Source: Candidatus Omnitrophota bacterium
Lineage (GTDB): Bacteria > Omnitrophota > Gorgyraeia > Gygaellales > Profunditerraquicolaceae
Length of the DNA stretch: 36,723 nt
Direction of reading: 5' to 3'
Assembly (NCBI GenBank): GCA_016782485.1
Contig: JADHYK010000005.1
Coordinates: 1 to 36,723 of the forward strand
The position numbers were made by a program, and so were the translations under genes. Positions 1,155 to 32,730 of this stretch are shown piece after piece. Position 1 is the stretch's first letter. Each line of letters begins with the position of its first letter. Below the pieces are notes generated by a model. That model was not told the DNA's origin. It did no database searches and was given only the letters and a program-made list of their open reading frames with translations.

Positions 1155-1634
1155 TTAAGATTCAACATTGTTTGCGAGGCGGGAAAACCAACCTTCCAGT
1201 AAATCCAGCGCCTCCTGGGCCCGGCGGCTTAATTTATCGACGAGGCCAATGCTCTCCGGCTGTATCATTAAAATTATTATATCCGCCCTTAAATTGTTTT
1301 TCAAGTAGTTAATCGAAAGCGAGATTGAAGCATTATGGGTGGAAAACAGGTTGGTGGTGGTAACTTCAGGGCCTGTTAGTACTCTGACTTCGCCCGCCTT
1401 AGCGCCAAAATCAGCCGAATCAATTATAACCACCGTATCAGGCGCGTCTTTTACGATTTTGCCGAGGTAGTTCTCAGGGCTTGCCCCTGCGTCGTAGACT
1501 ATATAGGGAACTCTGCCTTTAAGGCGGGCTGCCAAGAGAGACCCTATGGCGTCGTCACCGCGCAGGGTATTGCCGATCCCCAGGATCACCACCCTGCCCT
1601 TGAGCCGATCTTGTAGTTCCCTCAGAGTATCCAT
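1155..1634 (-). CDS. hycI: Hydrogenase maturation protease (HycI/HyaD family)
   Basis: GIGNTLRGDDAIG N-terminal motif, DAGASPENY, IIDSADFG and STHNASIS motifs of the hydrogenase endopeptidase family. Confidence 0.85.
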   Translation of the reverse strand: MDTLRELQDRLKGRVVILGIGNTLRGDDAIGSLLAARLKGRVPYIVYDAGASPENYLGKIVKDAPDTVVIIDSADFGAKAGEVRVLTGPEVTTTNLFSTHNASISLSINYLKNNLRADIIILMIQPESIGLVDKLSRRAQEALDLLEGWFSRLANNVES

Positions 1635-2701: not shown

Positions 2702-4771
2702 CTATTCGCTTACGACCCGCCGGATCTTATCCAGATTCCTGCGCGCCTCTTCCTCTCCTCTTTTTACGAATTCCGCTGCCCTATGTAGTTCCAGCCAATA
2801 CAGGCCGGAGGTATCCGGATGCAAAACCACATCCGCAAGCAAGGCCTCTTTCTCGGCTACTTCCGACTGCAATATCTCGACGCTGCTAAAGATTATATCG
2901 AGTATGTTGGTCCTGAACCTGTTTTTAAAGAAACCCTTCAGGTCAAGGCTCAAGCGCCTGCGCTTAATCTTCTGCGGAAGGGTAACGGTGATCTCCTCTT
3001 TTATCTTCTCATACTGGCGCATAATATCCTGCCGCGAGGGGGTGACGTTTACCGCGATAATTTTTTTTATCCCCATTTTCAATAATGCCTCGGTAGGCAG
3101 GGGGTTGGTCACCCCTCCGTCAAAAAGCATGGCCTCCTTCAATCTAAAGGGGGCAAAAACCCCGGGCATGGTACAGCTGGCCATCACCGCATCAAGCAGA
3201 AGCCCTTTGTCCAGGACTCTGGCTTCTTTCCTTTTTACATCGCTGGCAATTATCTTTAAGGGAAGCTTCAGGTCATAAAAGGTTTTATTGCCCAGGTATT
3301 TCTTTAAGAACCTCTGCAGCCTTCTCCCTTTTATAAACCCCAGATGCGGTATGGTAAAATCCAACAGGTTCCAGATATGCCTGGGCTCTTTGAATTCGCT
3401 GCTGATTATTTCCAGGATTTCGGCGCTGGAAAACCCGATTGCCCAAAGGCTGGCGACAACCGCACCGACGCTGGAGCCGGCAAGCACATCTATGGGAATC
3501 TTTTCCTCTTCGAACACCTTGAGCACCCCTATATGGCAGAACCCGTAACCGACGCCCACGCCAAAAACAAGCCCCACCTGGCACTCCCCGGTCTCCCTGG
3601 CAATCCTTCTTACTGCCCGGGAATATTCACAATCCGGCTTATCCAGGACCAGCCTCTCGGTCGCTTCAAAATCCGCCTTAGGCAGGGTAGCAAAAATACT
3701 GTGCTTCAGGAGCCGCAGCTGCTCCTGGTGGGTAAGTTTGGAAAGCCCGTATTCGTTGATAATCACCTTTACTTTATCTTCGCTAAAGTTAAATTCCTCT
3801 TTAAGCCTCTGGATTAAATTATTGCTCCTTTTTAAATCCACCGGCTCCGGGCTGATTAAAAGATGCACTAAATCCGACTGGTTGAGTATGTTGAAAATAG
3901 CCGGGTCCATCGTGGAGGGAAGTTCCAGTATCAGATAATGGTAATCGTTGACCAGCAGGCTTAAAACCCTTAACAGGTTCTTCAGGTAGCTTTCGTCCTG
4001 CGGTTTATAATTAAGGCAAAGAAGATCGACTCCAAAGCCGCTTTTTAGAATAAAATCTTTTAAGAGCTGCGGGGTTGCTGACGGCGAACCGCTTAATTCA
4101 ATCCCTTGACTCCGCTCGGGATTGATGCTGAGCGAAGTCGAAGCATCAAAGATTACCGGCTGCGCTGTCTCTAATTTGGCGGGCATACTGTGCAATTTAG
4201 CCGCCGGGCAGATATCCAGTATAATCACCGACTTTTGCGTCTGTTCCTTTAGGCTAAGGCTTAAGTTAAAGGCATAGAGCGTCTTGCCGGAATGGGAATA
4301 GTAGCTAAATAGCGAGATAATCGTGCTTTCAAAGATAGTCTTCTGGTGGATGTCTTTGCGTTTCAGGCGCCGGGAAAGGGTCCGGCTTAAATCAATGGCC
4401 AGGCGGGGGATTTTTTTCAGTATAAAATCAAAACTATCCTTTTTGATCAGCAGAAGCGAACAGTCATTGAAGGCCTGGGCGGTTACCGAATGCGGCTCGT
4501 CGGTTAAAAGCGAAATTATCCCGAAATACTTACCGTGATGCAGGTATTCCAACACCGACTTCTCACCCTTGGCGTCCTGGGTGTAAATGACCACCCTGCC
4601 CGAGATGAGGCAGTAAAAGCCGCTAGTGGACGAGCCCTCTTTGTAGATAACCTCAGCCTTCTTGTACTCTATAATCGCGGAATTTTCTTTAATAATGTTT
4701 AATTCTGCCTGGGATAAATTAGTAAATAAGGGAATCTCCCGCAATATCAGGTTTTTACTTATCGTTTTCAT
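2702..4771 (-). CDS. NTE-like protein: cyclic-nucleotide-binding domain, degenerate P-loop (MinD/ParA-like) domain, patatin-like phospholipase domain
   Basis: N-terminal cNMP-type region (IPLFTNLSQAELNIIKENS...GSSTSGFYCLISGRVVIY); central SHSGKTLYAFNLSLSL...VIILDICP; patatin GSSVG nucleophile and DGG motif. Start set at the second Met (MKTISKN), overlapping the upstream stop as ATGA. Confidence 0.85.
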   Translation of the reverse strand: MKTISKNLILREIPLFTNLSQAELNIIKENSAIIEYKKAEVIYKEGSSTSGFYCLISGRVVIYTQDAKGEKSVLEYLHHGKYFGIISLLTDEPHSVTAQAFNDCSLLLIKKDSFDFILKKIPRLAIDLSRTLSRRLKRKDIHQKTIFESTIISLFSYYSHSGKTLYAFNLSLSLKEQTQKSVIILDICPAAKLHSMPAKLETAQPVIFDASTSLSINPERSQGIELSGSPSATPQLLKDFILKSGFGVDLLCLNYKPQDESYLKNLLRVLSLLVNDYHYLILELPSTMDPAIFNILNQSDLVHLLISPEPVDLKRSNNLIQRLKEEFNFSEDKVKVIINEYGLSKLTHQEQLRLLKHSIFATLPKADFEATERLVLDKPDCEYSRAVRRIARETGECQVGLVFGVGVGYGFCHIGVLKVFEEEKIPIDVLAGSSVGAVVASLWAIGFSSAEILEIISSEFKEPRHIWNLLDFTIPHLGFIKGRRLQRFLKKYLGNKTFYDLKLPLKIIASDVKRKEARVLDKGLLLDAVMASCTMPGVFAPFRLKEAMLFDGGVTNPLPTEALLKMGIKKIIAVNVTPSRQDIMRQYEKIKEEITVTLPQKIKRRRLSLDLKGFFKNRFRTNILDIIFSSVEILQSEVAEKEALLADVVLHPDTSGLYWLELHRAAEFVKRGEEEARRNLDKIRRVVSE
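4098..4149. repeat. Double-hairpin palindromic repeat inside the NTE-like CDS
   Basis: TCAATCCC(4098-4105)/GGGATTGA(4118-4125) and TTGATGCT(4122-4129)/AGCATCAA(4142-4149); the two 12-nt loops are near reverse complements of each other. Confidence 0.8.
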
Positions 4772-5988
4772 ATATCGATAGTACCCGTCCTGCAGACTTC
4801 GCAAAACTTCCTGGCGCTTTCTCTTACCCTGCGCCTATAATTATTATAATCCACCTCTATCAGGCCGAAACGCGGGGCAAAGCCTTTATCCCACTCGAAA
4901 TTATCTAACAACGACCAGTAAAGATAGCCCATAACCCGCACCCCCTTCTGCATCGCCAGATACAGGCTCTTCAGATGTGCAGAGATAAACTCCCATCTTA
5001 AATTGTCGTCGGGGGTGCAGATGCCGTTTTCCAGTATAAATACGGGCAGCCTGTACCTTCTGAATTTTAAAAGCAGCTTATATAGCCCTTCGGGGTAGAT
5101 ATCCCAGCCCAGGGAATTTTTCTTCAAGCCACTTTCTTTAGCCTTTGATTCGTCAAAAAGCAGAACCTGTATCAACCAGCTCTCCACATTTACCAGCCCG
5201 CGGGTATAGTAATTAATGCCGATAAAGTCCAGGGATTTATGCCGCATCAGGCTGTTTACGAATGCGAAATTAAAGGACCTCTGCCTTAAATATACGGCCA
5301 CTCTATTGCGCAGGGTAGGCACTGAAGGGGCAAAGGCCTGGATGTTCTTGGCGATGCTGACTGCAGGAGGCTTTAGGTTTCTTCTTTTATAAATATCGTG
5401 TATAGCGCGGTATGCCTTAACGTGCGCGGATATGAGGTTAGTGATTACTTTTTTTGCCTGTAAATATGACCTCTCCTGGGGCGGCCAGGCACCGAGGATA
5501 TAGGCATGATAGGCATAAACCATCGGTTCGTTTATGGTCACCCAGAAATGCACTTCTTCGGCGAGTGCACCGACGATTTTTTCGACGTAACGCAAGAATA
5601 AATCTGCTGCCGCAGGATTCTTCCAGCCGCCTGAACCGGCAAACCAAACCGGATTGGTAAAGTGGTGCAGCGTAACCACCGGTTCGATATTGCACTGCCG
5701 CAGGGAAGCTATTACCTCTTTATAATGCGTTATCTCATCCAGGCAGAACTTTCCCTCCTGCGGCTCGATACGCGCCCACTCTATAGAGAGGCGGTGGGCA
5801 TTGTGGTTGAGCTCTCTGGCAAGGGCAAAATCCTCTTTATAAAGCTGATAATGGCCGCAGGCATCGCCGGAGGGCTCTTTGCCGCTTTTCTTCTCCCACT
5901 CCCACCAGTCGCTATTTTTGTTATTGCCCTCCACCTGGTATGCGGAGGCGGCAGCGCCCCAATAGAACCCTTCTGGAAACTTAATCAT
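4768..5988 (-). CDS. Glycoside hydrolase family 1 (beta-glucosidase-like)
   Basis: FPEGFYWGAAASAYQVEG N-terminus, acid/base TINEP, nucleophile ILENG, C-terminal YWSLLDNFEW. Confidence 0.92.
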   Translation of the reverse strand: MIKFPEGFYWGAAASAYQVEGNNKNSDWWEWEKKSGKEPSGDACGHYQLYKEDFALARELNHNAHRLSIEWARIEPQEGKFCLDEITHYKEVIASLRQCNIEPVVTLHHFTNPVWFAGSGGWKNPAAADLFLRYVEKIVGALAEEVHFWVTINEPMVYAYHAYILGAWPPQERSYLQAKKVITNLISAHVKAYRAIHDIYKRRNLKPPAVSIAKNIQAFAPSVPTLRNRVAVYLRQRSFNFAFVNSLMRHKSLDFIGINYYTRGLVNVESWLIQVLLFDESKAKESGLKKNSLGWDIYPEGLYKLLLKFRRYRLPVFILENGICTPDDNLRWEFISAHLKSLYLAMQKGVRVMGYLYWSLLDNFEWDKGFAPRFGLIEVDYNNYRRRVRESARKFCEVCRTGTIDI

Positions 5989-8066: not shown

Positions 8067-8678
8067 TTAGGATTTTAACACTGCTTCCCGGCGGCAGCGC
8101 GGGCAAAGGATTTTTATGCGGTCGGCGCGCAGGAACTCCATCTCCTTCTTTTGCGCGGGAACAATATCCGGGGCGAGACTTAAGCTCCTTAAATAAAAGA
8201 GCATCAGCGAAGGGTTGGCAAAAACAAGCGGCCCTAATTTTTTCACCACCCACAAATACTGATCATAGGGAATAATCGGCTCCCCGCAGCATTCGCAGGC
8301 GATGAGCTCCTTTTGTATCTCCTGTTTCAAATCCTGCCTCTTCTCGGTGGTGGCCAGGTCAAATTCATTAGAAAGCATAATCCCTTTTTCAGTCAGGCAA
8401 TTTGCCTGGCATTGGCCGCAGAAGATGCAAAGTTCTGTCCGATAAGTCAGTATCCTCATCGCCCTGCCGTTTTTATTTACATCCATGAATTCCAGGGCAC
8501 CCGACGGACAGACCTGCACGCAGGCAGAACAGCCTACGCAGTCCTCTTCGTAAAAGTAGGGCTTGCCTCTAAAGCGTTCAAAGGGCTTATGCGGCTTGTA
8601 GGGGAAGCGCGCAGTATAGGGGCCTTTTATTAGTGCGGTGATTGCCTCTCTTAGTTCGCGTAATTTAGGGTATCTCAT
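8067..8678 (-). CDS. 4Fe-4S ferredoxin-type hydrogenase subunit (NuoI/HycF/MbhN-like)
   Basis: CVGCSACVQVCP and CIFCGQCQANC clusters plus C-terminal CECC/CPRC; last subunit of the hydrogenase operon. Confidence 0.85.
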   Translation of the reverse strand: MRYPKLRELREAITALIKGPYTARFPYKPHKPFERFRGKPYFYEEDCVGCSACVQVCPSGALEFMDVNKNGRAMRILTYRTELCIFCGQCQANCLTEKGIMLSNEFDLATTEKRQDLKQEIQKELIACECCGEPIIPYDQYLWVVKKLGPLVFANPSLMLFYLRSLSLAPDIVPAQKKEMEFLRADRIKILCPRCRREAVLKS

Positions 8679-9004
8679 TTGCTATCTTCTTCGTATTTGT
8701 CGCAGACCGAACCCTCCCACAACTTCACTCCCGCCTTATGCGCACCGCGCGCCAGGGCATGGGCAGCGACCGGGGCGGTTAAAAGCAGAAATACAATGCA
8801 TAACAAGGCCTTGATGCCGGTGCCATTAAAACCTTTGATTACCACTACGCCAAAAAGAATACTGCAGGTGCCCAGGGTAACGCACTTGGTAACTGCCTGC
8901 AGGCGGTTATAGACATCGGGAAGGCGTATCAAGCCTACGCAACCGAATATATCAAAGGCCAGGCCGAATAAAATAAATATGTACCCTAAGACTTCACTCA
9001 TCAA
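8675..9004 (-). CDS. mnhG: Na+/H+ antiporter subunit MnhG/MrpG
   Basis: FGLAFDIFGCVGLIRLPDVYNRLQAVTKCVTLGT. Confidence 0.88.
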   Translation of the reverse strand: MMSEVLGYIFILFGLAFDIFGCVGLIRLPDVYNRLQAVTKCVTLGTCSILFGVVVIKGFNGTGIKALLCIVFLLLTAPVAAHALARGAHKAGVKLWEGSVCDKYEEDSK

Positions 9005-9368
9005 AACCCTTACCTTCCAGGTATTTGGCTAAAGCTAACGCGCCGATAAAACTCTGCAGTGCCCAGGCGATGGCAATATCAATATACCAGCTTCTTCCTG
9101 TGGGGATGCTCAGGATTGCGCAGAAACCCACGATTAAAATCCCCAGCGTATCCACGGCCACTGCCCTGTCTGCGGCGGTGGGCCCGAGCAACAAGCGCAG
9201 CAGGCATAAGGCGAAGCAGAGCATCAGCACAAAAAAGCAGCGCGCCAGATACGGCGACTGCCAGCTTAATAACGACGGCAGGGTATAAACAGTAATAACC
9301 AACAGCAGCGCTGCCATCGTCAACAGGCCCAGTAACCAGCTCAAAATCTTTGCCTTCCTCTTCATCAT
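8994..9368 (-). CDS. mnhF: Na+/H+ antiporter subunit MnhF/MrpF
   Basis: LLLGPTAADRAVAVDTLGILIVGFCAI. Confidence 0.87.
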   Translation of the reverse strand: MMKRKAKILSWLLGLLTMAALLLVITVYTLPSLLSWQSPYLARCFFVLMLCFALCLLRLLLGPTAADRAVAVDTLGILIVGFCAILSIPTGRSWYIDIAIAWALQSFIGALALAKYLEGKGFDE

Positions 9369-9859
9369 TCAAAAATCCTGCTTAAGATCTTCTCAAATTT
9401 TTCTACGATCAAGCGGCTGGCCTCTTGTGTATCCTCTGATTTGACATCAATCCAGTGGATATAAAGAGACCCCTCTTCGGGTTTTATATCAACGCAAAAG
9501 GTCCCCGGGGTAAGGGTAATGGAATTAGCTAAAAAAGTAAGCCCGGTATCTGATTTTAAAGTTGTTTTGACTTTGACGATGCCCGGATTAATGGGCAGCC
9601 GGGGGCTAATTACGCGCCTGGCTACGTCGATATTCGCCTTTAAACACTCCCAGGAAAATATAAAAATATAGTAGGCAAACCAGAGGTATCTGCTGATGTG
9701 GGTAAAGTGGTGCGGCCGGCGGGTAAACAAATCTCCGGTCAGGGCGGCCACCAGGGCGGCGGCAAAAATTCCTACCAGCGCATGCTGCAGGTCGAACGGC
9801 CAGCCTAAAAGCATCCAGATAAAAAACCCGATAATAAATAATATAATCCTGCTCTTCAT
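9365..9859 (-). CDS. mnhE: Na+/H+ antiporter subunit MnhE/MrpE
   Basis: Pattern ...FTHISRYLWFAYYIFIFSWECLKANIDVARRVI...LTFLANSITLTPGTFCVDI. Confidence 0.88.
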   Translation of the reverse strand: MKSRIILFIIGFFIWMLLGWPFDLQHALVGIFAAALVAALTGDLFTRRPHHFTHISRYLWFAYYIFIFSWECLKANIDVARRVISPRLPINPGIVKVKTTLKSDTGLTFLANSITLTPGTFCVDIKPEEGSLYIHWIDVKSEDTQEASRLIVEKFEKILSRIFE

Positions 9860-11367
9860 TTTAGAACCGCCCCAAAGACCGCCAGCGCATAATCCCTGCC
9901 GTCTGACAATACATTTACCGCATTATTAAGAAAGAAACTAAAACTGGGCAATAACAGCAGCCCCCCCAGGATACAGATAGTTGCCAGGCTGACCATAGCG
10001 AACTTCATCGCAGGAGGCACTTCCTTGATCGCCTGATATTTCTCCTTTAGCGGCCCTAAAAAGGCGAACTTCTGCACCTTCATAAAACTTGCCAGCGTCA
10101 GGACAGAGGCAATTACCGCTGCCAGGGCATAACCGATATGGCCCTTTTGCACACAGGCCAGGATGATGATTAATTTGCTGAAAAAACCGTTAAGGGGCGG
10201 GATGCCGGCAATTGACATAGAAGCAATTAAATTAGTGCCTGCGGTTACCGGCAGCTTCTTGCGTAATCCGGACATCTCTCTTAGGTCCCTGGTCCGGGCG
10301 GAATAATCTATCGCCCCGGAGTTTAAGAAAAGCAGGGATTTGAATATCGAGTGGTTAAATAAGTGGAAGAGCCCTCCCAGTATACCCAAAGGCGTACCCA
10401 GCCCGATGCCTAAAACCACATAACCGATCTGGCTGATGGAGTGATACGCCAGCAATCTTTTCAGGTCCCATTGCGAAAGCGCCAGGATTACCGCCACCAG
10501 CATTGAAAGAGCACCCAAAAACATTAACACCGATAACACTGTACCGGAGGCGCCTATAACGTTAAAAAATATCCTCGCCAGGGCATAAACGCCCAGGGTC
10601 TTAATCAAGACACCCGAAAGCATCGCGGAAATTGAGGCGGGCGCAGAGGAGTGGGCATCAGGCAGCCAGGCATGAAAAGGCACTAATGCCGACTTCAGGC
10701 CAAAGCCCATTAAAAAAAGTACGCTTACAAAAGGTACCGCCCAGTTACTTGGCTTTGCGCTTAAAACCCGCGCCATATCCGCCATATTCAGGGTGGAGGT
10801 AAAGCCATATAAAAAGGCAATCCCGATAAATATGAAGGCCGATGCCACTGAGCCCATAATCGCATACTTAAAGGATGCCTCCAACTCTTCTGCTTCGGTA
10901 CCGAAAGCAACCAGGGCATAGCTGGATATCGAGGCAATCTCCAGGAATACAAAAAGGTTGAATAAGTCCCCGGTTACAATCACCCCGTTCATTCCGGTGA
11001 GCATCAGAAAAAATAAAGTGTAAAATTTGGGCTTATCGGTGTACTTCTCCATGTAGTTAAAGGAATAGATAACTACCAGGAAGGCAATGATATTTACGGT
11101 AACCAGCATAAAATTGCTTAGTCCGTCTAAGACCATACAGATGCCAAAAGGAGGCAGCCACCCTCCGATCTTATAGACCAGCGCAGTCTCGGGACAGCGG
11201 CCTAAAATGGCCAGGCCCCAGAAAGAAAAAATTAAAAGCAGAAAACTGGATAACCCTGAGACAATATCTACATAAGTAGATTTTATAAACCTGCCGATCA
11301 GGGAGATAAAAAATGCCGTAAACAGCGGAATGATTACAAATAAAGGAATAATGTTTGCTCCGGGCAT
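9856..11367 (-). CDS. mnhD: Proton-conducting antiporter subunit MnhD/NuoN-like
   Basis: Proton_antipo_M family: TGDLFNLFVFLEIASISSYALVA, GLKSALVPFHAWLPDAHSSAPASISAMLSG. Confidence 0.9.
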   Translation of the reverse strand: MPGANIIPLFVIIPLFTAFFISLIGRFIKSTYVDIVSGLSSFLLLIFSFWGLAILGRCPETALVYKIGGWLPPFGICMVLDGLSNFMLVTVNIIAFLVVIYSFNYMEKYTDKPKFYTLFFLMLTGMNGVIVTGDLFNLFVFLEIASISSYALVAFGTEAEELEASFKYAIMGSVASAFIFIGIAFLYGFTSTLNMADMARVLSAKPSNWAVPFVSVLFLMGFGLKSALVPFHAWLPDAHSSAPASISAMLSGVLIKTLGVYALARIFFNVIGASGTVLSVLMFLGALSMLVAVILALSQWDLKRLLAYHSISQIGYVVLGIGLGTPLGILGGLFHLFNHSIFKSLLFLNSGAIDYSARTRDLREMSGLRKKLPVTAGTNLIASMSIAGIPPLNGFFSKLIIILACVQKGHIGYALAAVIASVLTLASFMKVQKFAFLGPLKEKYQAIKEVPPAMKFAMVSLATICILGGLLLLPSFSFFLNNAVNVLSDGRDYALAVFGAVLK

Positions 11368-11371
11368 TTAA

Positions 11372-11710
11372 CTAACCTCTCAGCCTCTTTATTTCGGTAA
11401 TGTCGAATGTACCGTATTTTTCATAAATTCTTATGGCAATGGAAATAACCAAAGCAGTAACCGCCAGGCCTATGACTATCGAGGTAAGCACCAGCGCCTG
11501 CGGAAGCGGGTCAACCATCTGCAAAATCTGCTGGTCCTGGGCCTCTATGGGAGAGCGGCCATGATAGCGATAGGCCAGAAGAATAAAAAATAAATTCATC
11601 GCATATTCCATGATCCCTAAGCCGATGATGATCTTTACGAGGTTGCGCTTACGCAAGACTCCGTAAAGGCCGACACAAAATAATGCCAGGCACAATAAAT
11701 ACAGGGTCAT
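11372..11710 (-). CDS. mnhC: Na+/H+ antiporter subunit MnhC (NuoK-like)
   Basis: GVLRKRNLVKIIIGLGIMEYAMNLFFI ... DPLPQALVLTSIVIGLAVTAL. Confidence 0.9.
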   Translation of the reverse strand: MTLYLLCLALFCVGLYGVLRKRNLVKIIIGLGIMEYAMNLFFILLAYRYHGRSPIEAQDQQILQMVDPLPQALVLTSIVIGLAVTALVISIAIRIYEKYGTFDITEIKRLRG

Positions 11711-12153
11711 TTTCTTTTTGACTCCTCTAATATTACTAACGCCAGAAATATCGCAAACAAACCTACGCCGACCTTTAAGCTGATCGCTAAATTGCTCAAA
11801 GGAATCGTCCCGGCGCTGAATAACTGGAAGGGTACGCCCTTATTGATGATATTTGAGAAAAATGCCCCGCCGAAGAACCCGAATAAGGCAATTGACAGAA
11901 ACATCAACGCTGCGATACTCTCTAAGTTTGAAGCCAGGTTCTTTGACAGTTTCTTCAACGCTACGTCTTTACCGAAGGCAAGCATCAGATGCACGAAGGA
12001 AAGGGCGATAATCACCCCTCCCGCAAAACCGCCGCCCGGAGAAAGATGGCCGTGTAAAACAATATAGATGCCGAATAATAATATCAGCCCCACGGTCAGG
12101 CGGGTAACCGTTTTAACAATTAACGACATTCCGATCTTAGGGTCATTCATCAT
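11707..12153 (-). CDS. mnhB: Na+/H+ antiporter subunit MnhB
   Basis: IVLHGHLSPGGGFAGGVIIAL motif. Confidence 0.9.
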   Translation of the reverse strand: MMNDPKIGMSLIVKTVTRLTVGLILLFGIYIVLHGHLSPGGGFAGGVIIALSFVHLMLAFGKDVALKKLSKNLASNLESIAALMFLSIALFGFFGGAFFSNIINKGVPFQLFSAGTIPLSNLAISLKVGVGLFAIFLALVILEESKRK

Positions 12154-12159
12154 GCGTTT

Positions 12160-12675
12160 TTATTTAATCCTCCCCGGCCGGCGCAATACCGCCATAATCC
12201 CTATTACGGAAGCAAATAAGACCGTGGCCTCCCCCAGGGTATCATAAGCCCTGAAGTCCAGGATTACTGCGGCAACCAGGTTTACTGCTCCGGTCTGAGC
12301 CGTGCCCTGCTGGAGGTATCTTTTCACTACCGCCATTATGGGATGTCCAAAGCCGGGGAGCTCTTGCAGGGCGGTATGCGCAAAGAAAAGAAATACGGCA
12401 ATAAACGCCAGGGTGCCGAGGGTATTAAAAAACCAGCGCCCCTTAATCACCAGGGGCAGATCTTTTCTTAAGGTCGCCCTGATTAAAATAATCAGGCACA
12501 AAATCTCTACTACCAGCTGGGTAATCGCCAGGTCCGGCGCCTTTAAAATCAAAAACGCAAGGCAGAGAGCAAAGCCCACAGCCCCCACCGCCACTACGCT
12601 GGATAAGAGGTCCTTGGCCTCGACGGCGATCAAGGCCCCGACAATCATAAATAAAAGGAGTAAATGTAATTCCAT
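12160..12675 (-). CDS. DUF4040/MbhD-MbhE-like subunit (equivalent to MnhA C-terminus)
   Basis: APDLAITQLVVEILCLIILI ... NLVAAVILDFRAYDTLGEATVLFASVIGIMAVL. Confidence 0.85.
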   Translation of the reverse strand: MELHLLLLFMIVGALIAVEAKDLLSSVVAVGAVGFALCLAFLILKAPDLAITQLVVEILCLIILIRATLRKDLPLVIKGRWFFNTLGTLAFIAVFLFFAHTALQELPGFGHPIMAVVKRYLQQGTAQTGAVNLVAAVILDFRAYDTLGEATVLFASVIGIMAVLRRPGRIK

Positions 12676-12676
12676 A

Positions 12677-14326
12677 TTATTTCATCAATACAAAGAATAA
12701 AGCAATCATCCCTAACAGTGTCCAGACCAGGTAGGTAGGCAAAACACCGTTATGCAGATATTGAAAAAACCTGCCTATGCCGAAAACCAGGGACTTGCCC
12801 TGTTCATAAATATCAAAATATCCTTTTTCCGCCTTTGCATAAATGCCCTTTAGGACCGGGAGCTCTTTGATCGTGTTATAAAACTCCGTGCCGCTCACCC
12901 GGTTTTTCCCTAATTCGGCGCCCTCTGCGCCCACAAAAGACGCATCCTGACGTATGACGGGTTTAATTGCCTTTAACTTAAATATAAATATCCCCAGAAG
13001 CAGGCCAATGATAATTAGCAGGGTGGATAACCCCGCATACCAGCTCCCTATAAAAGACACCCCTCCTACTGCCGGAAGGATAAAATATTTAAGCGGTAGT
13101 TGATTGGCAAAAACCCCGAATAGCACACAGATAACTGCTAAGACAACGCAGGGAAGCCACATCTGCCAGGGAACCTCACCGGACCGCTTTTTTGCCCCGC
13201 TGGGTTGCTGGCCTAAAAAAGTTGCATGGAGCAGTTTCATGAAGCTTGCCAGGGTCAGGCCTGAACCGCACATAGCCGCCGCCAAACACAGAATTAATAT
13301 TAAGTTTCCTTTACCGAACGATAACCTCTCGATTAATCCCTGATAAATCATCCATTTGGAAACAAAGCCATTAAAAGGCGGGATGCCGGAGATAGCAAGG
13401 CTGGCCACCAGGCAGGAAATATAGGTAAGCGGCATTGCTTTTGACAGCCCCCCCAGTTTATCCAGTTCGGTTGTACCGGTTTTCTGCTCCACATTGCCCG
13501 CGCCGAGAAAAAGGGCCTGCTTATAAATGGAGTTATTTAACATATGGAATAATCCGCCGGCAATACCTATTGGGACGCCTGTGCCGATACCCAGCACCAT
13601 ATAGCCCACCTGAGATACCGCATGGTAACCCAAGAGCCTCTTCATATTGTGCTGCACCAGCGCCATCATTACTGCGGCAATTATGGTAAAAGCGCCGATG
13701 ACCATAAGAAATATATTTATTGCCTGATTTAATATAAACAAATCCAGGGAGAGCCTTGCCAAAAGATAAATTCCTAATAGTTTATCTAATGACGCCGGCA
13801 AATATGCTACTACCGGCACAGGCGCTTTTTCGGCGCAATCCGGGACCCAGGTGTGAAAAGGCATTGCCCCGGCTTTAGCAAGACAGGCGACGGCAATGCA
13901 TAAATATGCCGCTATCGGCAGGAATTGCAAGTTACCGTCTAGGGCAATGCGTATCTTATCTATCTGCATTGTCCCGCTAATGTAATAAATTATGCCGATG
14001 CCCAATAACATCAGCGCATCCGTACCGCCGATGATAATAAGGGTTTTTTTCGCCGTGGAAGAGACATCATCTTTAGCCGTATTAATCAAAAGGTAAAGCG
14101 TCAAACCTAAAAAACCCCATAAGATTGCAAGTAAAATGAGGTTATTGGAAAGCACCACTCCTATAGAGCTGGCGGCAGTCAGAATAATATAGGTATAATA
14201 CCGGAGGCCCTGGCCCCTGCCCTTCATAAAACGCCAGGAGTAAATAAGAATAAGTACCGAAAACAAAGCGATTGCTAAAACTATAAAGCCGTTGAGTGAA
14301 TCTAATTTAAACCAGGGGTAATACAT
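12677..14326 (-). CDS. Second proton-conducting NuoL/NuoN-like antiporter subunit
   Basis: AKAGAMPFHTWVPDCAEKAPVPVVAYLPASLDKLLGIYLLARL; NMKRLLGYHAVSQVGYMVLGIG. Confidence 0.88.
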   Translation of the reverse strand: MYYPWFKLDSLNGFIVLAIALFSVLILIYSWRFMKGRGQGLRYYTYIILTAASSIGVVLSNNLILLAILWGFLGLTLYLLINTAKDDVSSTAKKTLIIIGGTDALMLLGIGIIYYISGTMQIDKIRIALDGNLQFLPIAAYLCIAVACLAKAGAMPFHTWVPDCAEKAPVPVVAYLPASLDKLLGIYLLARLSLDLFILNQAINIFLMVIGAFTIIAAVMMALVQHNMKRLLGYHAVSQVGYMVLGIGTGVPIGIAGGLFHMLNNSIYKQALFLGAGNVEQKTGTTELDKLGGLSKAMPLTYISCLVASLAISGIPPFNGFVSKWMIYQGLIERLSFGKGNLILILCLAAAMCGSGLTLASFMKLLHATFLGQQPSGAKKRSGEVPWQMWLPCVVLAVICVLFGVFANQLPLKYFILPAVGGVSFIGSWYAGLSTLLIIIGLLLGIFIFKLKAIKPVIRQDASFVGAEGAELGKNRVSGTEFYNTIKELPVLKGIYAKAEKGYFDIYEQGKSLVFGIGRFFQYLHNGVLPTYLVWTLLGMIALFFVLMK

Positions 14327-14353
14327 CTTTATTTAACTGTCCTTTTATCTATA

Positions 14354-14974
14354 CTACTTTTTAATCTTGAGTAAATTCCTGGCTACCTTCTTTGCATGAT
14401 AATAGACCGCGGCGGTAAAATCAAGAATATTTAAGAACATATTGCAGGCCATCGGGCTGCAAACCCCGTCGAGCATCCTCTGATTATGCCGCAGGCGGTA
14501 CTCATCTACCAGCGTATCTATGTGCTCCTGGTTTTTTAATACCTGCCCCACTAAATCAGGATTGTCCTGTTTTAAGGCATAAACTACTTCATGCAGTGCT
14601 TTTTCGGTCTTCTGGTAGAGGACTTCGTATTCCTTTACCGCCTCATCGCTGAAAAGCAGTTTTTCTTCTATTTTGATCTGGACTCTCTCCAGGATATCCT
14701 TGCAGTAATCCCCAATCAACTCTAAATCACCCACTATATCTGCGAAAATTAAGGTTTTGGCCTTTTCGGATTTATCAGTAACTGCGCGGCCAAAGGCCAC
14801 TAATTCAGAGGTAATCTCCTTTTCTAAATTATTCAATTTCTGCTCGTCGGTTAATACCCGGGTTAATAGATCCAGGTCGTGTTCCAGGAAGGCCCGGTGG
14901 GCCGCCTGCCACATCGTAAAGGCAAGCGCCGCCATATCGGCAATCTTTAATCTGATGCTATCCAGATTTTCCAT
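14354..14974 (-). CDS. PhoU-like protein
   Basis: All-helical PhoU pattern: EKEITSELVAFGRAVTDKSEKAKTLIFADIVGDLELIGDYCKDILE. Confidence 0.72.
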   Translation of the reverse strand: MENLDSIRLKIADMAALAFTMWQAAHRAFLEHDLDLLTRVLTDEQKLNNLEKEITSELVAFGRAVTDKSEKAKTLIFADIVGDLELIGDYCKDILERVQIKIEEKLLFSDEAVKEYEVLYQKTEKALHEVVYALKQDNPDLVGQVLKNQEHIDTLVDEYRLRHNQRMLDGVCSPMACNMFLNILDFTAAVYYHAKKVARNLLKIKK

Positions 14975-16157
14975 CCCTTAGTCCTTCCTTTAGCTGAGCG
15001 GTCTTTTCCTGCGAGAGTTTTATTAAATCCCAGCCGTTGAGGATTTTTTTATTATCCACTTTTTTGAGCACCGCAACCCTCTCGGTGCAGCAATAACAGG
15101 GGTCAACCGCCGCCAGGGTAATAGCGGCATCCGAAATCGTCCCGCCCACACAAGCTACTTTATTAGAAGCCACATTTACGTAACTGGGTGCCCGAATCTT
15201 ATGTCTTATCGGGCGGTTTGTCCCGTCGCTCTTTACGTAATGGAAGCACTCTCCTCTTGGCGCCTCTACCCGGCCGATGCCTTCGCCCGGCGGGATCTCT
15301 TTTATATCGGCATCAAAAGCGCCCTTTGGCATTTTATTCAGGCACTGACGGATAATCCCTATGCATTCGTATAACTCCAGGATGCGTACTTTTGTCTTGG
15401 CAAAGATATCCCCCTCTTTCTCTACAATTACGTTCCAGCTAACTTTATCATATGCAGCGTAGGGGTCATCCCGCCTGATGTCAATATTCACTCCTGAAGC
15501 GCGGGCAGTCGGCCCGACCACGCACCAGTCTATTGCCTGCTGCCTGTTTAAAATTCCAATCCCTTTAAGCCTGGCCTGTATTACCGGGTCATCCATTACC
15601 GCGCCCTTGAACATATTCACTGCCGGGATTAGTTCGTCGAGCGTCTTCTTCAATTCAGGTATATCATCGTCTATTATATCACGCCGCACTCCCCCCACCT
15701 TCATCATTGCGTAGTGATTACGGTTACCGGTAATCATCTCGAAAATATCCAGCACCGGCTCGCGGTATTTCCAGGCCCACATCCATACGGTATTGTAACC
15801 TATAAAATGGCCGGCAAGGCCCAGCCAGAGCAGGTGGCTGTGAATCCGTTCCAGCTCCGCGATTATCGTACGGATGTAAAGCGCGCGCTCCGGCACTTCA
15901 ATGCCTGCCAGGTCTTCCATGGCATTAACATAGGCCAGGGGATGGCTGGTGGAGCAAATCCCGCAGATACGCTCAACCAGAAAAGGGACCTGGTCAAAGT
16001 GTTTATGCTCTGAAAGTTCTTCAATCCCGCGGTGCATATAACCGATAACGATATCAATATCCACCACCTTCTCCCCTTCTACATAGAGGCGGAAATACTC
16101 CGGCTCCTCCTGCAAAGGGTGATAGGGGCCTATGGGTATGATTACTTTGTGTGACAT
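14958..16157 (-). CDS. Group-4-type [NiFe]-hydrogenase large (catalytic) subunit
   Basis: Both NiFe cysteine motifs: RICGICSTSHPLAY and DPCYCCTER, with a cleavable-looking C-terminal tail after TER. Confidence 0.92.
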   Translation of the reverse strand: MSHKVIIPIGPYHPLQEEPEYFRLYVEGEKVVDIDIVIGYMHRGIEELSEHKHFDQVPFLVERICGICSTSHPLAYVNAMEDLAGIEVPERALYIRTIIAELERIHSHLLWLGLAGHFIGYNTVWMWAWKYREPVLDIFEMITGNRNHYAMMKVGGVRRDIIDDDIPELKKTLDELIPAVNMFKGAVMDDPVIQARLKGIGILNRQQAIDWCVVGPTARASGVNIDIRRDDPYAAYDKVSWNVIVEKEGDIFAKTKVRILELYECIGIIRQCLNKMPKGAFDADIKEIPPGEGIGRVEAPRGECFHYVKSDGTNRPIRHKIRAPSYVNVASNKVACVGGTISDAAITLAAVDPCYCCTERVAVLKKVDNKKILNGWDLIKLSQEKTAQLKEGLRDGKSG

Positions 16158-16170
16158 ATCGTTATGCCTC

Positions 16171-16614
16171 TTAACACTTATCTTTCCTTAAGGGATATTT
16201 TCCCTGCGGCCAGTCGTCAATCAGAAGCAGGTGCGTTAAATTAGGATGGCCGACAAAATTAATCCCCAATAACTCCCAGATCTCGCGCTCAATCCATTCT
16301 GCTCCGGGAAACAGCGGGGCAATGGAATCTATCTTTGGCGATTTTTTATCTTCTATCAAAACCCGGACGGAATAAATCACCCCGGTCTTATCCAGGCTGA
16401 AGTGATATAATATCTCCAGGCCCTCGGGCGTATCGGTGCCGGTAGCAATGACAAAGCGCAGGCCCAACTCCTTAAATAAAACCTTTGCTGTCTCCAAGAT
16501 ATCTTCTTTCTTGAGGGAAAAATAAACCCTGCGGGGGGAAGATTGTTTCCATTCCAGGATCTTCTTTCCCAGTTTCTCTTTTATTTTGTCCTCTATTAGA
16601 TTTACGCTATTCAT
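16171..16614 (-). CDS. Hydrogenase NuoC-like (30-kDa family) subunit
   Basis: ILYHFSLDKTGVIYSVRVLIE...IAPLFPGAEWIEREIWELLGINFVGHPNLTHLLLIDDWPQGKYPLRKD. Confidence 0.92.
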   Translation of the reverse strand: MNSVNLIEDKIKEKLGKKILEWKQSSPRRVYFSLKKEDILETAKVLFKELGLRFVIATGTDTPEGLEILYHFSLDKTGVIYSVRVLIEDKKSPKIDSIAPLFPGAEWIEREIWELLGINFVGHPNLTHLLLIDDWPQGKYPLRKDKC

Positions 16615-16617
16615 GGC

Positions 16618-17043
16618 TTAAGCGGCCTTTTCTATCTTGGCGATCAGTTTTGCCACTCCGGCAATTATCGCCTCCGGCTTGGGCGGACAGCCGGGAATAT
16701 ATACGTCTACCGGCACTACTTCATCGACCGGGCAGGGGCTGTTATAGGAATCCTTGAACATAATCCTGCCGCAGGCACAACTGCCTATCGCCAGTACCAG
16801 GCAGGGCTTGGGGGCCTGGGCATAAAGCATCTTCAATCTTTCCCTGGTCTTGTAATTAGGCACGCCGGTAACCAAAAGTGCATCTGCATGCCTGACGCTG
16901 CCCACCAGAACCATGCCTAATCTTTCCAGGTCATGCCTGGGAGTCAAGAGATCCAGAATTTCAATATCACAGTTATTGCAGGGAGAGCAGGCTGCATGAA
17001 AAACCCAGATGGATTTAGTTAAGCTTTTTAGTTTTATATTCAT
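16618..17043 (-). CDS. [NiFe]-hydrogenase small subunit (NuoB-like)
   Basis: CSPCNNCDIEILDLLTPRHDLERLG, AIGSCACGR, YIPGCPPKPEAI. Confidence 0.92.
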   Translation of the reverse strand: MNIKLKSLTKSIWVFHAACSPCNNCDIEILDLLTPRHDLERLGMVLVGSVRHADALLVTGVPNYKTRERLKMLYAQAPKPCLVLAIGSCACGRIMFKDSYNSPCPVDEVVPVDVYIPGCPPKPEAIIAGVAKLIAKIEKAA

Positions 17044-17050
17044 AATAAAC

Positions 17051-17959
17051 TCACAGCCCGAGCATTGCTAAGACCACTGCTATAAATGCGAGGGCTGTAA
17101 CCGGCCCCCAAAAGAATCTCATTATCTGGTCTATGCGTAAACGCGGATTCGTATTCTTGATCAGTATGATGAGCACTAATATCGCTATAAATTTTAAGGA
17201 GATAAATAAGGGGCTTAAGTCTTTACCCATAAAGAGCACGATAAGTAAAAGCGCCGCAACATAAAGAAGGATTGCCTTGCTCAGTTTAAATACGGCTAAG
17301 GGAAGCCCCGAATATTCGATTAAAACCCCGCCCATTATCTCCTGCTCCGCCTCAGGGGCATCAAAAGGCACAAAGCCAAGTTTTGCCTGCACGCAAAGCA
17401 AGGCTGCTAAAAATGCCAATACCCCTGAAATAGATGCGATATTGGAGCCGAAATTCATCTGATAACCCAGAATCTGCCCTAACTGTAGCGCGCCGGCATT
17501 TTTAACAATCACTGCAATTATGGAAAGAATAAACGGCAGTTCATATGCTAAAAGCAGCTTCATCTCCCGGGAAACGCCGATGGAGGCCAGGGGGTTTCCT
17601 GAGGAAGAGGCCCCCAGAATCAAGGCTATTGCCGGGATAGTCAAAAGATAAATAACCACGATAAGGTCGCCCAGAGAACCCTGAAAGGGAAAAATAACTG
17701 CCTTACCCAGCATTGTCGCCGCTAAAACCAGGCTCAAGAGCCCCAAAAAAGGGGAAAAGAGAAAGGTAATCTTTGACCTCTCGGGTAAAATAATCTCCTT
17801 GCCGGACAATTTCAAGATATCAACGAAATTCTGATACCAGGGCGGGCCTACCCGCCACTGCAGCCGGGCAGTAACCTTTCTATCAACCCATCCGGACAAT
17901 AAACCTACAATCGCGCTGAATAAAAATCCGGGAAATATTAAATAATTGAATAATATCAT
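17051..17959 (-). CDS. Hydrogenase membrane subunit (NuoH/HycD/EchB-like)
   Basis: GLLSGWVDRKVTARLQWRVGPPWYQNFVDILKLSGKE; PFDAPEAEQEIMGG. Start overlaps upstream stop as ATGA. Confidence 0.92.
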   Translation of the reverse strand: MILFNYLIFPGFLFSAIVGLLSGWVDRKVTARLQWRVGPPWYQNFVDILKLSGKEIILPERSKITFLFSPFLGLLSLVLAATMLGKAVIFPFQGSLGDLIVVIYLLTIPAIALILGASSSGNPLASIGVSREMKLLLAYELPFILSIIAVIVKNAGALQLGQILGYQMNFGSNIASISGVLAFLAALLCVQAKLGFVPFDAPEAEQEIMGGVLIEYSGLPLAVFKLSKAILLYVAALLLIVLFMGKDLSPLFISLKFIAILVLIILIKNTNPRLRIDQIMRFFWGPVTALAFIAVVLAMLGL

Positions 17960-18453
17960 CGTTTCTTCTTGGCTGGCTGGGGATCCTCTCTTGACCACCT
18001 AAGCGTATGCACGGCCAGATGCTCTCCGACCAGATATATATTCTTTTCCGGGTCCTCTGTTACTTCCTTAATTTCTATTGCTTTCTCCGGGCAGCTGGTT
18101 ACGCACTTGGGGAGCTTTTCGCTTATCCCCACGCAATAATCGCATTTTGAATCCAGGTAGGGGATAAAATCATCAAAGATTATCCCGAAAGGACAGGCAA
18201 TCGAGCAAGACTTACAGCTGGTGCAGCGCATCTTATAACGCTTGAGGTGGCCGTCCGGCGAACGCTCCAATGCATTATGATAACAGGCGTTCACGCAGGG
18301 CGCCTCTTCGCAATGGCGGCAGATGGTCGCAAATGTCGCATATTCCCGTAACGAGGCAATCCCGTTATTCTGCGGATGATAAAAATAATCGCAGACCACG
18401 CGGCAATCCTGGCATTTATTGCATATTTCTAAGTCGATAAACAGGCGTTTCAT
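17956..18453 (-). CDS. 4Fe-4S ferredoxin-type electron transfer subunit (HycB/CooF-like)
   Basis: Four cysteine clusters incl. CNKCQDCRVVCDY, CRHCEEAPCVNACYHNAL, CTSCKSCSIACPFGI. Confidence 0.88.
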   Translation of the reverse strand: MKRLFIDLEICNKCQDCRVVCDYFYHPQNNGIASLREYATFATICRHCEEAPCVNACYHNALERSPDGHLKRYKMRCTSCKSCSIACPFGIIFDDFIPYLDSKCDYCVGISEKLPKCVTSCPEKAIEIKEVTEDPEKNIYLVGEHLAVHTLRWSREDPQPAKKKR

Positions 18454-18456
18454 CCT

Positions 18457-19275
18457 CTAGTCCCAGATATCGTGAATATCTTTAATCTCTTCGTAGGTAA
18501 ATACCGGGCCGTCTTTACAGGCATAATACCTGCCAAGGCGGCAATGCCCGCACTTTCCCAGGCCGCAGGACATATTCTTCTCCATGGAAAGGTAGATATC
18601 TTTGGTTTGGAAGCCCAAATCCAGTAATTTTAAAGTCACAAACTTCATCATAATCGGCGGGCCGCAGACTATCGCCACCGCCTTATTCAGGTCCACCGGC
18701 ATACCGTCCAATATCGTAGTCACCAGCCCCACCTTCCCGCTCCAGCCCGGATCACCCACGTCAACGCTGACCAGGGCATCGACTTTTTCCTTCTTCGACC
18801 ATTCAGGAAGCGAACCCTTATATATAATGTCAAAGGGGGTGCGCGAACCATAACGCAATATGATCTTGTTATAATTATGGATTTCGGAAAATAAACTGAA
18901 TAATAAGGAACGTAAAGGTGCCAATCCCACTCCGCCCCCTACAATTACGATATCTTTACCTCTAAATTTATCCAGCGCATATCCCTTTCCGTAGGGGCCG
19001 CGTATTCCCAAAGAATCCCCCTTCTGCATCGAATGCAGTTTAGCGGTTATCCTGCCGGCCTTCATTATGGTTACGTCTAACCTTTGCTTAATACCGGGGT
19101 CGGAAGACGGAGTAAACGGCCCCTCCCCTATCCCGGGAACGGTCAATTCTATGAATTGTCCCGTTGCAAAGGAGAAATCCGACTTTGGCCTCAGGGTAAA
19201 GGTCTTGATGGTGGAAGTCTCTTCCTTTATGTCTTCAATGACCGCCTCAAGCGGCTGGTAGATATTTTTCATCAT
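18457..19275 (-). CDS. FAD/NAD(P)-binding oxidoreductase subunit (AsrB/sulfhydrogenase-gamma-like)
   Basis: FAD-binding TGQFIELTVPG, NAD-binding VGGGVGLAPLRSLLF, C-terminal 2Fe-2S CGLGKCGHCRLGRYYACKDGPVFTYEEI. Confidence 0.9.
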   Translation of the reverse strand: MMKNIYQPLEAVIEDIKEETSTIKTFTLRPKSDFSFATGQFIELTVPGIGEGPFTPSSDPGIKQRLDVTIMKAGRITAKLHSMQKGDSLGIRGPYGKGYALDKFRGKDIVIVGGGVGLAPLRSLLFSLFSEIHNYNKIILRYGSRTPFDIIYKGSLPEWSKKEKVDALVSVDVGDPGWSGKVGLVTTILDGMPVDLNKAVAIVCGPPIMMKFVTLKLLDLGFQTKDIYLSMEKNMSCGLGKCGHCRLGRYYACKDGPVFTYEEIKDIHDIWD

Positions 19276-20344
19276 ATAGTCTTTTCAAGATATAACGTAT
19301 ATCTATCCTGCCCGGACAGACGTCAATACACCTGCCGCAGCCGCAGCAGGCCTGAAAACCCAGATTATCGATAAAGAAATCAAATTTCTTGAGGTAACGG
19401 TTACGCAGCCTCATATAGCGCATCCTTAGAGGGTTGGCTCCGCCGGCAACCGTGGTAAAATTTTTATACAGGCAACCGTCCCAGATACGGAAACGCTCTG
19501 CCCGCTCTTTTCTGGATTCGTCCGCCAGCAAAAAACAGTGGCAGGTGTCGCAGGCAAATACGCAGGCGCCGCATTCGACACAGGTCTGCATCTGTTCCTG
19601 CCAGACCGGGGAATTAAACCCGGCAGTAACAATTTCTTTTAAGGTTTCTTTTTTCGGGATCTGATGGTAGCAAAGGTGTTCCTCCATTCGTTTTACTACC
19701 GACTCTCTCTTTGCGTAACGGCCGGAGATCTGACCGAAATTGGCGGGCGTTAAGATGCCCTTTAGGGCATTCACGATCTCTTCGGCTTTATCCGAAGCTA
19801 CATCAAGCAGAAAACCGTCATTAAGCGGCGAGAGGTTAAAATCAAACCCCTTTGTGGCAAAGGGGTCGATGTCAAACCCCCGGCAGAAACAGGCCTCTTT
19901 GAAATTAGGGCAGTCCCCGGAGATGACCAGGGCATTTTCCCGCCTGGATTTATACAAGGGATCGGCCTGTTCGCCCTCCAGAAAGACATAATCCTGGATT
20001 TTTAAGGCAAAAAGATCGCAATTCTTTACCCCGCATATCGCCAGGGGCTTGCGATTTTTTTCTTTATCCGCTGGGCCATGAAAATAATCGCAGACCTTTT
20101 CCTTAAAATGGGTAAAAAAGATACGTACCGGCTCAATAGAACGGTAATCGTTAAAGACGATCCCCTCTTTTTTAGCCTCTTCGTATTTTTTTAAAAGGTA
20201 ATCGTCGCTGGGCAGTTGGAAGGAATGCTCGCACGGGACTTTGAGGGGGGACTTGATTCTGGTGGGGACATACAAATTAAAACTGGCGGATATATGCTCA
20301 TAAAATTTGCTTAGATTATGTCCTTCGAGGTAATAAGTCTTCAT
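19247..20344 (-). CDS. 4Fe-4S dicluster subunit (AsrA/sulfhydrogenase-beta-like)
   Basis: GVKNCDLFALKIQDYVFLEG; CVECGACVFACDTCHCF; CCGCGRCIDVCPGRIDI. Confidence 0.87.
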   Translation of the reverse strand: MKTYYLEGHNLSKFYEHISASFNLYVPTRIKSPLKVPCEHSFQLPSDDYLLKKYEEAKKEGIVFNDYRSIEPVRIFFTHFKEKVCDYFHGPADKEKNRKPLAICGVKNCDLFALKIQDYVFLEGEQADPLYKSRRENALVISGDCPNFKEACFCRGFDIDPFATKGFDFNLSPLNDGFLLDVASDKAEEIVNALKGILTPANFGQISGRYAKRESVVKRMEEHLCYHQIPKKETLKEIVTAGFNSPVWQEQMQTCVECGACVFACDTCHCFLLADESRKERAERFRIWDGCLYKNFTTVAGGANPLRMRYMRLRNRYLKKFDFFIDNLGFQACCGCGRCIDVCPGRIDIRYILKRLYDEKYLPAA

Positions 20345-20381: not shown

Positions 20382-20399
20382 TTGTGAAGATTATCACAA
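20382..20399. promoter_or_regulatory. 18-bp dyad operator, Rex- or CRP/FNR-family-like
   Basis: TTGTGAAGATTATCACAA, 38 bp upstream of the first gene of the hydrogenase operon. Confidence 0.6.
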
Positions 20400-20462
20400 A
20401 ATATCCCAGAAAATATTGAAGTTTAATATTAACATAATTCCCTATTCTTGTCTATAAAAAAC

Positions 20463-32715: not shown

Positions 32716-32730
32716 CTTTTCTCCTTCTAT

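Follow-up and report, generated by a model that had tools for sequence, protein, structure and literature searches.

The closest described relative of the system considered here is the 'enigmatic' group-4 [NiFe] hydrogenase of Saganbacteria RX5A, which occurs with Mrp-like subunits, a molybdopterin oxidoreductase, cooF, asrA, and asrB (Matheus Carnevali 2019, PMC6349859). The RX5A hydrogenase was closest to Zixibacteria and Omnitrophica sequences, and an Mbh-like function was supposed for it (PMC6349859). Later papers on Omnitrophota call the enzyme 4g and Mrp-linked, with no mention of an AsrAB module in their accessible parts (PMC8542988, PMC10066038), and HydDB describes 4g as putatively ferredoxin-coupled with an undetermined role (PMC5037454). 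Here we describe an operon of 17 minus-strand genes at positions 8067-20344 of a Candidatus Omnitrophota contig (JADHYK010000005.1). The window, by which we mean the whole stretch of DNA analysed, is this complete contig (36,723 bases) of a 62-contig, 1.04 Mb genome that is about 90% complete. We propose, with a probability of roughly 0.68, that the operon would encode one membrane-bound, ion-translocating group-4 [NiFe] hydrogenase that uses an NAD(P)H dehydrogenase module as its electron entry and probably disposes of NADH as H2.

As in Saganbacteria RX5A, a group-4 [NiFe] core, Mrp-like subunits, a CooF/HycB-like ferredoxin, AsrA, and AsrB stand in one region, but the window operon is without the molybdopterin oxidoreductase. 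Archaeal membrane-bound hydrogenase (Mbh; group 4d, 6cfw) shares the membrane arm, the NuoH/B/C/D/I-like core, and the MbhD/E and MnhB-G-type subunits, whereas the window operon also encodes AsrAB, HycB, and a NuoL-like protein as a second large antiporter-like subunit, and its large catalytic subunit (LSU) falls in a separate clade. Formate hydrogenlyase 1 (FHL-1; group 4a, 7z0s) is similar in that a HycB-like polyferredoxin links a dedicated oxidoreductase to the core, although the donor module in the window would be AsrAB in place of formate dehydrogenase, the Mrp module is full, and the LSU has no fused NuoC domain. Sulfhydrogenase I (SHI; group 3b, 9nez) has beta and gamma subunits homologous to the AsrA-like and AsrB-like proteins, yet it is a soluble enzyme with a group-3 [NiFe] core, whereas the window enzyme is of group 4 and predicted to be membrane-bound, and the AsrB clades of the two are separate. 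Anaerobic sulfite reductase AsrABC shares the AsrA and AsrB homologues, but the window has no AsrC and its proteins score below the cut-offs. The gene combination was already published in 2019 for RX5A (PMC6349859), so the novelty implied by an earlier note on this DNA does not stand, by that note's own refuting condition. What appears to be new is that the combination extends over about 15 phyla and has a single origin, that its input modules have been exchanged, and that a single-copy operator is conserved; no further paper on the gene combination was found in a search that did not extend to subscription journals and supplements.

Gene content of the operon

All 17 open reading frames (ORFs) are intact and almost all of them abut or overlap, and profile searches against Pfam support the identity of each product. 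The earlier note had listed these genes in the same order, and the ORF check and Pfam show its list to be correct to the base. In the direction of transcription, the operon opens with an AsrA-like iron-sulfur electron-transfer protein homologous to SHI beta, which adjoins the flavoprotein (19247..20344; PF17179 Fer4_22, 1.5e-26). There follow an AsrB-like homologue of SHI gamma/AsrB with FAD, NAD(P), and [2Fe-2S] domains (18457..19275; NAD_binding_1, FAD_binding_6, and DHODB_Fe-S_bind) and a HycB/CooF-like polyferredoxin whose 16 cysteines are set out for four [4Fe-4S] clusters (17956..18453; PF13247 Fer4_11). The core then comprises a NuoH/MbhM-like membrane anchor (17051..17998; PF00146 NADHdh, 1.8e-59), a NuoB/MbhJ-like small subunit for the proximal [4Fe-4S] cluster (16618..17043; PF01058 Oxidored_q6, 3.1e-26), a NuoC/MbhK-like subunit (16171..16614; PF00329 Complex1_30kDa, 4e-27), and the [NiFe] LSU of group-4 type (14958..16157; PF00346 Complex1_49kDa, 5e-71, and PF00374 NiFeSe_Hases, 1e-16). 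The last gene of the operon (8067..8678) encodes a NuoI/HycF/MbhN-like ferredoxin with two [4Fe-4S] clusters and a conserved additional cysteine quartet (PF12838 Fer4_7, 7.9e-11; NCBIfam HycF-like, 1.2e-26), the conserved cysteines of which are retained among relatives in the alignment. Complex-I-like NuoB, C, D, H, and I subunits are thus encoded together.

Between the LSU and this ferredoxin lie a PhoU-like accessory protein (14354..14974; PF01895, 2.6e-17) and an Mrp-type membrane module of the kind found in Mbh (group 4d). A NuoL/MrpA-N-like antiporter subunit, extra to MnhD (12677..14326; PF00361 Proton_antipo_M, 1.8e-56, with NCBIfam NuoL/MrpA/MrpD matches), precedes a DUF4040 protein, an MbhD+MbhE-like fusion equivalent to the C-terminal part of MrpA (12160..12675; PF13244 and PF20501). 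The remaining subunits are MnhB/MbhF-like (11707..12153; PF04039, 4.7e-26), MnhC/MbhG-like (11372..11710; PF00420 Oxidored_q2, 6.2e-28), MnhD/MbhH-like, an antiporter subunit (9856..11367; PF00361 Proton_antipo_M, 3.8e-70), MnhE/MbhA-like (9365..9859; PF01899 MNHE, 4.2e-45), MnhF/MbhB-like (8994..9368; PF04066 MrpF, 2.4e-18), and MnhG/MbhC-like (8675..9004; PF03334, 6.9e-25). Because the NuoL-like and DUF4040 pair corresponds to a split MrpA and MnhB-G are present, the antiporter module is complete.

Conservation of the operon

Among 58 related genomes searched for LSU homologues, 47 encode some homologue and about 30 encode true orthologues with 64-84% identity, while further paralogues lie at about 47%, 33-37%, and 28% identity. 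Orthologous loci of Omnitrophota keep the order AsrA-AsrB-HycB-NuoH-NuoB-NuoC-LSU wherever the contig reaches. A wider scan of named genomes returned 585 relatives, the best 80 of which, chosen by similarity to one LSU, were surveyed, with more distant kin lying outside the survey. These 80 bear about 15 phylum labels, among them Omnitrophota, Bacteroidota, Elusimicrobiota, Fermentibacterota, Nitrospirota, Nitrospinota, Spirochaetota, and Hydrogenedentota, in which binning errors of metagenome-assembled genomes are possible. The earlier note had suggested a neighbourhood survey for the co-occurrence of AsrAB with group-4 and Mrp genes, and the outcome was positive: AsrA and AsrB immediately precede HycB-NuoH-B-C-LSU in 54 of the 57 named loci whose sequence extends more than 4.3 kb ahead of the LSU. 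A chance neighbourhood was rejected on this count and on the gene order retained across relatives.

In the three loci without AsrAB, its place ahead of the HycB-like gene is taken by a NuoG-like/molybdopterin-fold protein about 550 aa long (L142:710-2347, L145:2231-3865, and L147:5777-7429), and two more loci hold both AsrAB and this protein (L104:1980-3722 and L148:5918-7576). AsrAB alone is therefore the common form, and the NuoG-like-only and combined forms are a minority. The NuoG-like protein is possibly the 'molybdopterin oxidoreductase' of Saganbacteria.

In a quick tree, the LSUs of the composite operons group in a single clade (101 rows with about 15 phylum labels, SH-aLRT 100), distinct from the references for Mbh and HycE and from other Omnitrophota group-4 paralogues. 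The composite clade sits on its own long stem outside the Mbh (group 4d) clade, for which a single reference was used, and the deeper groups of the tree join in an open fork. The window LSU belongs to a 39-row subclade in which all named records are Candidatus Omnitrophota except one row labelled Planctomycetota, and a Margulisbacteria locus (L094) also falls within the composite clade. Composite AsrB proteins likewise form one clade (77 rows, SH-aLRT 100), separate from the AsrB found beside 3b hydrogenase, FdhA, or AsrC in the same phylum. Pairwise distances of the LSU correlate with those of AsrB (r=0.82), AsrA (0.75), and HycB (0.73), as they do with those of the core partner NuoH (0.74), and 0 of 1000 permutations reached values as high. 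Judged by its correlations with the LSU, which match that of NuoH, AsrAB is tied to the unit no less firmly than a core subunit. On these trees and distances, AsrAB was recruited once and co-inherited afterwards.

The operon varies in its other parts. MnhB-G have been lost in some Omnitrophota loci (e.g., L054 and L056), and an additional antiporter-like gene has been gained in L047, L049, and L051. The versions at L054, L056, L130, and L150 have neither MnhB-G nor DUF4040 and retain AsrAB and the core together with one or two antiporter-like subunits. The PhoU-like gene is present in part of the clade only, is missing from many loci, and occupies three differing positions by lineage (window 14354-14974; L101:8407-9021; L073:11176; L095:16980). 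A small protein resembling a cyclic-nucleotide-binding domain precedes AsrA in L086, L144, and L146. A second Omnitrophota group-4 clade (L060-L065) has about 47% LSU identity, several antiporter-like genes, and no AsrAB, with the NiFe motif present in the members aligned. The loci L069, L070, and L071 hold HycE-like proteins (about 530 aa, 28-30% identity) that lack the NiFe cysteines and stand beside NuoL/H/B-like genes, and these loci would encode an Ehr-type complex.

Hydrogenase core and maturation

Both [NiFe] cysteine pairs of the LSU are intact (L1, RICGIC; L2, DPCYCCTER), as the earlier note had said, and both motifs are kept in 101 of the 101 LSUs of the clade. In the NuoB-like subunit, C22, C25, C89, and C119 are invariant over 102 rows. 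The best solved relative of the LSU is Pyrococcus Mbh (6cfw_L, 7.4e-87), followed by HycE of the Escherichia coli formate hydrogenlyase (1e-81). A HycI-type [NiFe] hydrogenase maturation protease is encoded on the same strand at 1155..1634 (PF01750, 1.1e-14; TIGR00142, 7e-28; TIGR00072, above cut-off) and probably matures this LSU. HypD is encoded in the window's own genome, and in relatives hyp genes, named by eye from their translations, lie beside the operon (HypB at 30 loci, HypF at 15, HypD at 11, and HypE at 9). Since the genome gives one NiFe LSU match and no [FeFe] hydrogenase was found in it, the operon encodes the only hydrogenase detected there. RnfC is present in the genome as well.

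The input module

The best solved relatives of the AsrA-like and AsrB-like proteins are SHI beta (9nez_B, 7.6e-36) and SHI gamma (9nez_C, 3.3e-50), and that of the HycB-like protein is HycB of the E. coli formate hydrogenlyase (7z0s_B, 3.6e-15). Their metal ligands are well conserved: 15 cysteines of AsrA are invariant across 77 relatives, C237, C242, C245, and C253 of AsrB across 84 rows, and the HycB cysteines are kept in 89-100% of 92 rows. The names AsrA and AsrB express homology and not membership, because the scores fall well under the NCBIfam equivalog cut-offs (114 vs 323 bits for AsrA and 220 vs 289 bits for AsrB, whose best NCBIfam match is TIGR02911). The sulfhydrogenase (HydB/HydG) cut-offs are missed as well, at 147 vs 750 bits for SHI beta and 171 vs 650 for HydG. 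Neither AsrC nor a group-3b hydrogenase subunit was found in the operon, and its LSU is of group 4.

The AsrB-like protein has an acidic TVD/SVD motif at the position where the NADPH-dependent archaeal SHI shows TR, which argues against an NADPH site of the archaeal SHI type. In Omnitrophota, AsrAB appears to be a plug-in NAD(P)H module whose catalytic partners are of at least four kinds, namely 3b hydrogenase, formate dehydrogenase, sulfite reductase, and the group-4 complex. At six loci of the same phylum (L183, L184, L185, L186, L190, and L191), AsrA-AsrB come after a formate-dehydrogenase-like molybdopterin protein in a setting of molybdenum-cofactor genes, apparently as an NAD(P)-linked formate dehydrogenase with the same diaphorase module.

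The operator

Between YqeY and AsrA, 37 bp ahead of the AsrA start codon, lies a perfect palindrome of the form TTGTGA-N6-TCACAA (20382..20399; TTGTGATAATCTTCACAA). It has the same exact outer half-sites as the Rex operator of Staphylococcus aureus, TTGTGAAW4TTCACAA (PMC2883068), and is the sole exact copy in the window's genome. The exact site precedes AsrA in 17 of the 65 non-duplicate regions, with 0.0 expected, and these regions span Omnitrophota, Nitrospirota, Bacteroidota, Elusimicrobiota, and unplaced bacteria. A further 10 Omnitrophota genomes with the exact site again have it in single copy and always at the hydrogenase promoter (11 of 11 with that of the window), while one more genome, G046, carries a version that differs by one mismatch. 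Among 29 control loci (other group-4 paralogues, FdhA-, AsrC-, and NuoG-type operons, and 3b), the exact site was found only at a 3b hydrogenase operon. This predicted Rex-type operator points to a link with NADH and, together with the TVD/SVD motif, it leads us to favour NADH over NADPH as the likely cofactor.

Of 76 loci, 12 contain a rex gene, which in six of them leads the operon with a gap of at most 14 bp. In these rex-led operons, Rex-box-like sites lie upstream of rex instead, with 10-12 of 12 matches and often in pairs 21 bp apart. A promoter-like TAGACA-17-TAATAT is found on the minus strand just upstream of the operator (20426..20454), but it is suggestive by position only, the region holding 23 such sites against 22.7 expected by chance. 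A CRP/FNR-type reader of the palindrome was also considered, but no HTH_Crp_2 above cut-off was found in 16 genomes; the CRP-type variant ATGTGA-N6-TCACAT hardly occurs (1 region vs 20 for the Rex-type form, duplicates included).

Other genes of the window

At 2702-4804, the window encodes a 700-aa protein that by eye has a cyclic-nucleotide-binding-like domain and a patatin-like C-terminus, and several Omnitrophota retain this protein downstream of the operon. At 32308-33942, a small ferredoxin-containing protein adjoins a DUF39-like protein, by eye like the homocysteine-forming pair of methanogens, and the pair adjoins NifS-, cysteine synthase-, and Rrf2-like genes.

Discussion

In the proposed mechanism, electrons would pass from NAD(P)H to the FAD and [2Fe-2S] of the AsrB-like protein, on to the [4Fe-4S] clusters of the AsrA-like protein, and through the four clusters of the HycB-like protein, which would serve as the wire between AsrAB and the hydrogenase core, to the NuoI-like ferredoxin subunit. 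From there they would reach the proximal cluster of the NuoB-like subunit and the [NiFe] site, where H+ would be reduced to H2 in a reaction that is reversible in principle. The NuoH-like anchor would couple this electron flow to the complete antiporter module, which would move Na+/H+. The probable role is the disposal of fermentation NADH as H2, with the operon likely de-repressed at high NADH/NAD+. The suggestion of the earlier note, a membrane complex linking NAD(P)H to H2 and ion translocation, holds up in this form, while direct NAD(P)H oxidation, a role for ferredoxin, and ion pumping are parts of it that we infer from the genes.

Several observations weigh against this proposal. Under assumed potentials of -290 mV for NADH and -500 mV for ferredoxin, the step from NADH to H2 costs 24 kJ/mol at 1 bar H2, breaks even at about 1e-4 bar, and releases about 10 kJ/mol at 1e-6 bar; the energy available is too small for pumping except at very low H2. 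Because the reaction is exergonic only below about 1e-4 bar H2, pumping from NADH alone is marginal; inward ion flow may push NADH toward H2, or alternatively the enzyme may operate in reverse as an H2:NAD+ pump with ion export. The NuoI-like subunit could accept ferredoxin, and the replacement of AsrAB by a NuoG-like protein at three loci means that the hydrogenase core can use other donors. The TVD motif does not single out the composite AsrB, because it is common to all bacterial AsrB in the set, the 3b copies included. Unlike the S. aureus system (PMC2883068), no Rex gene was detected in the window's own approximately 90%-complete genome, where the best match has E=0.11. Rex was also not found in three genomes with a perfect site (G016, G018, and G033, the last with weak partial Rossmann matches only), and by hand count the site and rex show no significant co-occurrence across genomes (8/4 vs 4/5).

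A rival explanation, which we consider unlikely, is a ferredoxin-dependent hydrogenase like Mbh or 4g, in which reduced ferredoxin would enter via NuoI/HycB and AsrAB would form a side branch to NAD(P)+ as a ferredoxin:NAD(P)+ oxidoreductase or by confurcation. The nearest solved LSU is that of the ferredoxin-driven Mbh, the ferredoxin-like subunits are intact, the energetics are better with ferredoxin, and both the putative coupling given for 4g by HydDB (PMC5037454) and the assumption of the Omnitrophota papers agree with it. However, AsrAB and HycB are co-inherited with the core as one unit, unlike in Mbh, and the Rex-type operator points to NADH. Moreover, AsrB resembles a one-flavin electron-transfer family (PyrK/NfnA-like) with no second, bifurcating flavoprotein encoded, and Rnf, of which RnfC is present, could handle ferredoxin:NAD+ exchange.

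We also judge it improbable that the complex works in the reverse direction as a complex I analogue, with H2 oxidation and NAD(P)+ reduction coupled to ion export and the reductant serving biosynthesis or acetogenesis. The release of about 24 kJ/mol from H2 to NAD+ at 1 bar H2 would be sufficient to move an ion, and some Omnitrophota are predicted to be acetogens (PMC10066038). Ambient H2 is usually low, however, and a Rex-type repressor that leaves DNA at high NADH would induce the operon when NADH is already abundant. De-repression of the Rex type would therefore fit NADH disposal and not NADH formation.

It is very improbable that AsrAB is part of a separate enzyme, either a sulfite reductase or a sulfur-reducing sulfhydrogenase, and merely neighbours the group-4 hydrogenase. 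The AsrA/AsrB names and the homology to SHI beta and gamma speak for such a separate enzyme, but the operon has no AsrC or 3b subunit, the scores stay under the equivalog cut-offs, synteny holds in 54 of 57 loci, and the composite AsrB clade is apart from AsrC- and 3b-linked AsrB; membership in either enzyme was rejected on the scores and the separate clade. Despite its overall homology to NuoD and further complex I subunits, a complex I relative unreactive with H2 (Ehr/Mbx/Mbs type) is hardly credible and was rejected at the sequence level, in agreement with the earlier note, given both cysteine pairs in 101 of 101 LSUs, hyp genes flanking the operon in relatives, and HypD in the genome with a HycI-type protease in the window, which are needed only for a [NiFe] site.

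If NADH is indeed the electron donor, the consequences would reach beyond this genome. We suggest, tentatively and at less than even odds, that a large, phylum-crossing group-4 class annotated as ferredoxin-driven (4g) may be an NADH-linked family under the control of an NADH sensor, in which the Mrp module would let an ion gradient drive or harvest the interconversion of NADH and H2. Such a family would be an ion-coupled alternative to the electron-bifurcating [FeFe] hydrogenases for producing H2 from NADH, with no flavin-based confurcation needed. Metabolic models of Omnitrophota and Cloacimonadota, which are built on a ferredoxin-coupled 4g enzyme, would then name the wrong electron donor.

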